From Vulcanimicrobiota bacterium (GTDB taxonomy: Bacteria > Vulcanimicrobiota > Vulcanimicrobiia > Vulcanimicrobiales > Vulcanimicrobiaceae): DNA of 64,000 nucleotides. Within the stretch, counting starts at the first letter, position 1; each line of letters begins with the position of its first letter. The notes beneath the pieces were generated by a model that searched no databases, was not told the DNA's origin, and saw only the letters and a list, made by a program, of their open reading frames with translations. Made by a program: the position numbers and the translations under genes. The DNA lies in the NCBI GenBank assembly GCA_027452165.1, contig DAIDGX010000019.1, forward strand, positions 62,001 through 126,000. The letters run 5' to 3'. Shown in pieces: positions 55,095-56,036 of this stretch.

Positions 55095-55170
55095 GGGGAC
55101 GTAGCTCAGCTGGTAGAGCGCCTGCTTTGCAAGCAGGATGTCAGGGGTTCGAGTCCCCTCGTCTCCACCA
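55095..55170 (+). tRNA. tRNA-Ala (TGC anticodon)
   Basis: 76 nt with encoded CCA. Acceptor GGGGACG pairs with CGTCTCC; the loop TTTGCAA gives TGC. 67 bp before the second tRNA-Ala. Confidence 0.96.
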
Positions 55171-55237: not shown

Positions 55238-55313
55238 GGGGGCATAGCTCAGCTGGTAGAGCATCACGCTGGCAGCGTGAGGGTCAGGAGTTCGAGTCTC
55301 CTTGCCTCCACCA
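55238..55313 (+). tRNA. tRNA-Ala (GGC anticodon)
   Basis: 76 nt with encoded CCA. Acceptor GGGGGCA pairs with TGCCTCC; the anticodon stem TCACG/CGTGA closes loop CTGGCAG, giving GGC. Confidence 0.93.
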
Positions 55314-55370: not shown

Positions 55371-55958
55371 CGAAGTACGCTGGGCGATCGCACGGCACGT
55401 CGTATGGCGTGCGCGGGTGAGGAAAGTCCGGGCTTCACAGGGCAAGGTGCAGGATAACGTCCTGTCAGGGCAACCTGAAGGAAAGTGCCACAGAAACATA
55501 CCGCCTCAAGAACTGCTTGAAGTGCACAGGGAATCTCGGGGGCCCCGCGGTTGCGCGGGGGGCGCGCAGGTGCGAAGCACCGGAGTGTCTTTCAGACCGT
55601 CGGGGTCCCCAAGAACTGCTTGCAGTGCACAGGGAATCTCGGGGGCCCCGCGGTTGCGCGGGGGGCGCGCAGGTGCGAAGCACCGGAGTGCCTTTCAGAC
55701 CGTCGGGGTCCCCAAAAACTGCTTGCAGTTCTTGGGGTAAGGGTGAAATCGTGAGGTAAGAGCTCACGGAGTTCCACGGTGACGTGGGCTCGGGTAAACC
55801 CCACCTGAAGCAAGACCGCTCGACCTTGGGGCCACGTGCCCCCGGACGGCCCGTCCGAACGAGCTACGTTGCATCGAGGTATGCGGTGACGCATGCCCAA
55901 GAGAGATGATCGCCACGGCCGCAGGGCCGTACAGAATCCGGCTTACAGGCGTACTTCG
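55371..55958 (+). ncRNA. rnpB: RNase P RNA (type A) with a tandem duplication in P12
   Basis: The ends pair perfectly (CGAAGTACGC at 55371-55380 with GCGTACTTCG at 55949-55958). Conserved elements are GAGGAAAGTCCGGGCTTCACAG, GGATAACGTCC, AAGTGCCACAGAAACATACCGCC, GGGTAAGGGTGAAA, GGTAAGAGCTCACG and AGATGATCGCCACGG...ACAGAATCCGGCTTACAG. The P15 loop is also visible. Length is 588 nt versus about 350-420. The extra sequence sits between ACCGCC and GGGTGAAA, the P12 position, and consists of two copies of a 103-bp unit plus a partial third. RNase P trims tRNA 5' ends. Confidence 0.93.
55507..55729 (+). repeat. 103-bp tandem repeat (2.2 copies) inside rnpB
   Basis: Copy 1 starts at 55507, copy 2 at 55610 and a 17-nt third copy at 55713, an exact 103-bp period. 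Copies 1 and 2 differ at only two positions seen by eye (GAAGTG/GCAGTG and GTGTCT/GTGCCT). Each unit contains hairpins CCCCGCG-GTTG-CGCGGGG and GGTGC-GAA-GCACC. Outer arms CAAGAACTGC and GCAGTTCTTG close the whole as an extended P12. Confidence 0.92.
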
Positions 55959-56036
55959 CACGCTGTAACCGCAAGGGTGCCTTCCCGCGTTGTAGGGAAA
56001 GAATCTTCCGACTATTCCAAGGAGCCGTTGTACATC

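Follow-up and report, generated by a model that had tools for sequence, protein, structure and literature searches.

A dispersed three-hairpin element in helix P12 of RNase P RNA: probable insertion followed by tandem duplication in a Vulcanimicrobiota bacterium

In heterocyst-forming cyanobacteria, the RNase P RNA gene rnpB reportedly carries STRR repeats, a description attributed to Vioque in 1997 (NAR 25:3471). STRR come as runs of short, 7-nt repeats; they reportedly lengthen helix P12, vary among closely related strains and can be dispensed with for in vitro activity. Rickettsia palindromic elements, palindromic repeats of a size comparable to the one described below, enter genes and are tolerated there. 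PMC2858038 cites the STRR work in rnpB, which PMC4046671 lists as well, for P12 being sometimes dispensable, and in another source (PMC3116915) REP (repetitive extragenic palindromic) sequences and REPINs, associated with RAYT transposases, are presented as short, dispersed, hairpin-forming, non-autonomous and sometimes tandem. Here we analyse rnpB in a 64,000-nt stretch of a Vulcanimicrobiota bacterium (contig DAIDGX010000019.1, positions 62,001 to 126,000; hereafter the window), whose P12 contains two nearly identical 103-bp units. The repeated material is a dispersed structured element, which an earlier sequence-only reading of the window, made from the letters without database searches, had not foreseen.

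The STRR repeats of heterocystous cyanobacteria appear to be the closest precedent, since there as here a dispersed repeat enlarges P12. The present repeat differs in being a three-hairpin element of about 100 nt, duplicated once as a 103-bp unit (2.2 copies) and not arrayed in units of about 7 nt, and in belonging to another phylum. In its habit (short, dispersed, hairpin-forming, sometimes tandem) the element is REPIN-like, but it differs from REPINs in size and sequence, and the RAYT (Y1) transposase (PF01797) that defines their system occurs in only two of 61 family genomes and not in the genome under study (G000). Rickettsia palindromic elements are likened to it by description only, the site here being an RNA gene, and no literature joining them to rnpB was found. 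Invasion of P12 by repeats is an already known kind of event; for this repeat family we found no description. Our reading, to which we give a probability of roughly 0.8, is that the element inserted into P12 of rnpB in this genus, lengthened it tolerably, and that a 103-bp unit was then duplicated. As the repeat unit is dispersed in both genome and family, the event was primarily an insertion, and the duplication came afterwards.

The gene itself is complete. Its match to RF00010 covers the whole model (1-367 of 367) at 228.7 bits, above the gathering score of 100 bits and with the conserved core, as expected of a type-A RNase P RNA; the RNA measures 590 nt, slightly longer than the approximately 588 nt first proposed. 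A search of the 2.64-Mb genome found no other rnpB. The extra letters relative to RF00010 fall at P12, where Tandem Repeats Finder reports an array (55507-55729; period 103, 2.2 copies, 97% matches, score 425) that is by far the strongest in the window. The two units differ at two of 103 positions (55520 A/C and 55588 T/C) and the partial third, of 17 nt, has one difference; a chance origin is excluded. The element and a P12-arm-like stretch are common to both units. Pairing of the outer P12 arms extends over 13 of 13 consecutive positions, and this helix is present in the predicted folds of the P12 region and of the whole RNA. The sequence-only reading was thus right in placing a tandem duplication of two near-identical units, with a partial third, inside P12 of a complete rnpB whose outer arms still pair, and its proposal that the insert lengthens P12 without breaking the ribozyme appears to be supported. 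The protein-binding extension that it offered as an alternative gained no support.

Outside rnpB, a DNA search of 41 genomes gave matches to the 103-nt unit in relatives, in both orientations. Their alignment defines an element of about 100 nt that is apparently non-coding and consists of GGGGG, hairpin H1 (CCCC...GGGG), hairpin H2 (with the sequence given for copy 2 in Table 1), a linker, GGGGT and hairpin H3 (CCCC AAAA...TTTT GGGG). A covariance model of it, R1, has ten matches in G000, both rnpB units among them. At E<=0.01, R1 has matches in 47 of the 61 genomes sampled from the family; at E<=1e-4, 56 of 148 sampled phylum genomes match, and all 56 are members of that family. When about 85,000 species, each represented by one genome, were scanned for the exact pattern, 20 stretches came back, only from Eremiobacterota-type metagenome-assembled genomes (MAGs): 14 from Candidatus Eremiobacterota, three from 'bacterium isolate REEB354' and three from UBP12_UBA5184. 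Rfam has no match at the element in nine loci (E<=0.1), exact matches were absent both from viral contigs, scanned with the element pattern, and from plasmids, scanned with the P12 insert, and no description of the element was found in literature on rnpB and palindromic elements or on Eremiobacterota repeats.

The fold of the element covaries strongly. In an alignment of 92 copies, 90 of them distinct, two-sided changes are seen at 26 of 27 base pairs and 96.6% of cells are standard pairs, against 41-58% paired in slid controls; the observed covariation was reached by none of 500 shuffles. Two-sided changes number 533, compared with 153 in shuffles, which is far above the bias to be expected from an alignment fitted to a structure-leaning model. 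The H2 loop is C(GNA)G in 67 of the 92 copies and reads GCGNAGC, a motif that forms an unusually stable mini-hairpin as DNA and serves us as a lead only.

P12 was compared among relatives. Measured from CCACAGAAA to GGTGAAA, the P12 interval spans 39-65 nt in the first set of relatives without the element, and 74 and 81 nt in two more, which carry another repeat. In G000 it reaches 261 nt, in the congener G002 251 nt, and in the two rnpB fragments of the congener G001 250 and 149 nt. G002 and one G001 fragment have two elements in inverted orientation, about 79% alike, and the other G001 fragment has a single one; both G001 fragments lie on contigs that end inside the gene, so this MAG may be mixed. 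Related genomes hold one copy, an inverted pair or a direct pair, in keeping with the expectation that unit number would vary. Within the genus, P12 is either short or contains the same element, and no long, unrelated, repeat-free P12 was found; the few P12s of intermediate length seen in other genera contain a different dispersed repeat.

Among 99 family genomes, one genus (G109, G137 and G114) and another (G130 and G074) also have the element in P12, and the G143 rnpB has it in P3 instead. Most relatives have a short P12 without it. In a tree of rnpB cores, from which G114 is absent, the P12 carriers fall into three separate groups, with many forks weak; one group sits within a supported clade that contains non-carriers. 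Three or more independent insertions into rnpB are the simplest reading. P12 of G126 (CCCCAAAAC...TTTTTGGGG) resembles a bare H3, the state that would be expected after deletion of the core between flanking repeats.

A different dispersed repeat, CTTCGACARGCTCAGNNTGAC, lies in P12 of G048 (where the genome has 25 exact matches, one of them in rnpB), by sequence in P12 of G119 and G140, and as a variant in that of G122. It shares with the three-hairpin element its dispersal, its presence in P12 and the host family, but the two are unrelated in sequence and its conserved motif is much shorter. With both repeats found in P12, this helix is a recurrent landing place for dispersed repeats in the family. 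The CTTCGACARGCTCAGNNTGAC repeat is very abundant in family genomes (e.g. G052, G001 and G068), with 370 exact matches in G052 and none for the reversed control pattern. In the G048 rnpB (L192, 453-878), an extra insertion, GGTCCTGAGC...AGTCGAAGGGCC, perhaps a variant of the same repeat, stands between P15 and P18. G004 (L003, L035) and G063 each have two above-cut-off rnpB matches on different contigs, which could be mixed MAGs or true second copies.

How P12 accommodates the insert can be followed in its arms. In every complete P12 carrier, the last GGGG of an element copy forms the 3' strand of P12, and the 5' arm resembles a diverged H3 left arm. Across nine sequences, pairing of the P12 arms is better within a genome than when arms from different genomes are matched (permutation p = 0.0027, which is only indicative as the nine are not independent). 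In G000, G55510-C55731 is a standard pair of the long-range helix, whereas the local H3 partner of C55731, A55716, would mismatch. H3 likely rebuilds P12 and leaves the ribozyme core untouched. Because the element is built of hairpins and its last hairpin gives the P12 3' strand, P12 would be lengthened and not disrupted, and the insert tolerated. The RNA is presumably functional and the insert close to neutral.

Direct repeats flanking 87 element copies were scored against swapped flanks, with the 99th percentile of this control as threshold. Fourteen copies exceed it, where fewer than one is expected. The scores of L064 and L068 (two neighbouring tRNA-Ala genes), L080 and L156 (tandem element copies involved) and L159 (repeats 40-63 nt away from the element) were set aside. 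There remain nine clear cases and a weak one (L083), with direct repeats of 13-78 bp; the flanking repeats start 1-5 nt past the final GGGG (L084, L151, L032, L178, L044, L091, L101, L096, L097 and L083). One orthologous site was compared for presence and absence, and it differs between congeners: at L097, beside a gene start in G002, the filled site shows a 13-bp duplication, and the same site is uninterrupted in G000 and G001. Insertion of the kind seen at these other sites presumably also brought the element into rnpB.

For 20 of the 90 copies a tRNA gene is found no further than 150 bp away; the expected share is about 1% (at an estimated 50 or so tRNA genes per genome), or about 4% at the tRNA density of the window. 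At L032 (157-320; G001:C67), the element is followed by a 5'-truncated 55-nt copy of the neighbouring tRNA-Ala(GGC), this partial tRNA being the product of the flanking duplication. In the window itself, two tRNA-Ala genes (TGC, GGC) at 55095-55170 and 55238-55313 lie just upstream of rnpB, and the same neighbourhood carries the element in G001, G011, G020 and G071. At L044, L047 and L091 (G011, G015 and G000), the element is found at the 3' end of seemingly the same gene in three genera, and at L044 and L091 its far side carries a duplicate of some 47 bp from the end of that gene.

Reverse transcriptase (PF00078) was detected in four of 61 family genomes and not in G000. Neither this enzyme nor the Y1 transposase was retained as a general mobiliser, as their distributions do not track the element. 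As to known classes, G000 lacks both the Y1 transposase expected for a REP or REPIN mobilised by RAYT and the reverse transcriptase expected for a SINE-like (short interspersed nuclear element) retroelement. Flanking repeats of 13-78 bp at about ten of 87 copies, with one empty site, might be read as the variable target duplications of a SINE-like element, and other routes can leave the same pattern. A MITE (miniature inverted-repeat transposable element) does not fit either, the ends GGGGG... and ...GGGG not being inverted repeats and the duplications varying over 13-78 bp instead of having a fixed length of 2-14 bp. It is possible, if doubtful, that the element represents an undescribed class of mobile nucleic acid of Eremiobacterota, whose insertions duplicate long target stretches of variable length and often fall next to tRNA genes and within RNase P RNA, dispensing with Y1 transposase and reverse transcriptase and possibly moving as a folded single strand.

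The path to the tandem state may be pictured as follows. After insertion of the dispersed, apparently non-coding element into P12 of rnpB in the genus, its last hairpin (CCCCAAAA...TTTTGGGG) would supply the P12 3' strand, leaving P12 longer and the ribozyme intact. In the inserted state the element core would be flanked by P12/H3-arm direct repeats, CAAGAACTGCTTG and CAAAAACTGCTTG, and slippage or unequal exchange between them would double the 103-bp unit; from a single insertion so flanked, either event would yield a unit of exactly this length. Unequal exchange between the P12-arm repeats is probably how the duplication arose, with slippage as another presumed maker of the second unit. The element cores of the two units are 99% identical, and the remaining copies compared from the genus show 78-86% similarity to them; the duplication looks recent, as had been suggested from the sequence. 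Direct tandem arrays of the element were also detected in G069 (L103) and G019 (L104), so duplication events recur for it. At L103 (253-422; G069:C67), the tandem pair is closely preceded by an M-box (magnesium) riboswitch.

Table 1. Coordinates in the window of rnpB, its P12 arms, the tandem units and the element copies
Feature	Position	Strand	Basis
rnpB, type-A RNase P RNA, complete, 590 nt	55372..55961	+	RF00010 228.7 bits, model 1-367; sole rnpB of genome
Outer P12 helix, 5' strand	55504..55516	+	13/13 pairs with 55725-55737
Outer P12 helix, 3' strand, doubling as right arm of element hairpin H3	55725..55737	+	
103-bp unit 1	55507..55609	+	Tandem Repeats Finder, sequence
103-bp unit 2, 2 differences vs unit 1	55610..55712	+	Tandem Repeats Finder, sequence
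Partial third unit (H3 left arm + loop)	55713..55729	+	Tandem Repeats Finder, sequence
Element copy 1 core: GGGGG, H1, H2, linker, GGGGTCCCC; H3 degenerate	55538..55610	+	R1 match 77.4 bits, G000:C19:117528-117634; core limits from sequence
Element copy 2, H3 complete	55641..55737	+	R1 match 55631-55737, 97 bits
H2 of copy 2: GGCGC GCA GGTGC GAA GCACC GGA GTGCC	55664..55692	+	sequence; helix covariation
H3 of copy 2: CCCC AAAAACTGC TTGC AGTTCTT GGGG; A55716-C55731 mismatch in local fold	55710..55737	+	sequence; helix covariation

Several points weigh against insertion followed by duplication. About 77 of the 87 copies have no flanking direct repeat above the control, the empty-site comparison covers one site only, and the searches for Y1 transposase and reverse transcriptase found no mobilising enzyme. 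The repeats flanking the rnpB copies are H3-like, so that ordinary target duplication is inseparable there from later copying or from selection for pairing, and the unit copy number rests on a MAG assembly. A single old insertion into rnpB of the family ancestor, lost many times since, must be counted here as well. It would suit the observation that in all complete P12 carriers it is the last GGGG of a same-orientation copy that makes the P12 3' end, and G126, with its P12 looking like a remnant H3, would fit too. We nevertheless consider it unlikely, for the carriers form three groups split by non-carriers (with weak support at many forks) and one carrier, G143, has the element in P3.

That the dispersed copies are selected functional RNAs, active in intercistronic processing, in attenuation or as a protein-binding module, and that those in P12 form a new protein-binding or localisation arm, seems to us quite improbable. 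The very strong covariation agrees with it, but is also expected if mobility needs the fold. Positional conservation is seen at L044, L047 and L091 (same site in different genera) and at L093 and L100, where the element precedes the same gene in two congeners; however, rnpB of most relatives does without the element, both orientations occur within one rnpB, and the empty site with its target duplication points to insertion. Collapse or expansion of repeats in a short-read metagenome assembly is a very unlikely source of the array. G000 is indeed in 27 contigs and both rnpB fragments of G001 stop at contig ends, but two positions distinguish the units, and several independent assemblies have the element in P12; an artefact could alter unit number, not place the element in P12. 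Local tandem duplication on its own, acting on an ordinary P12 helix without any dispersed element, is refuted as a full explanation, because the unit family is present elsewhere in the genome and in relatives and such duplication cannot alone give the single copy or inverted pair of congeners, and it survives as the second step: the units are 98% identical across their 103 bp, 30 nt of which are P12-arm sequence, so a local duplication did occur.

Under insertion followed by duplication, a ribozyme that is essential and present in a single copy can take up a dispersed element repeatedly, and even amplify it, in one peripheral helix (P12, in one case P3), where a hairpin of the element rebuilds the helix of its host. 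The repeat family itself is well defined and structured and belongs to a poorly studied phylum, with target duplications, tRNA-gene neighbours and no recognised mobiliser, and it makes the question of how such repeats move a testable one.
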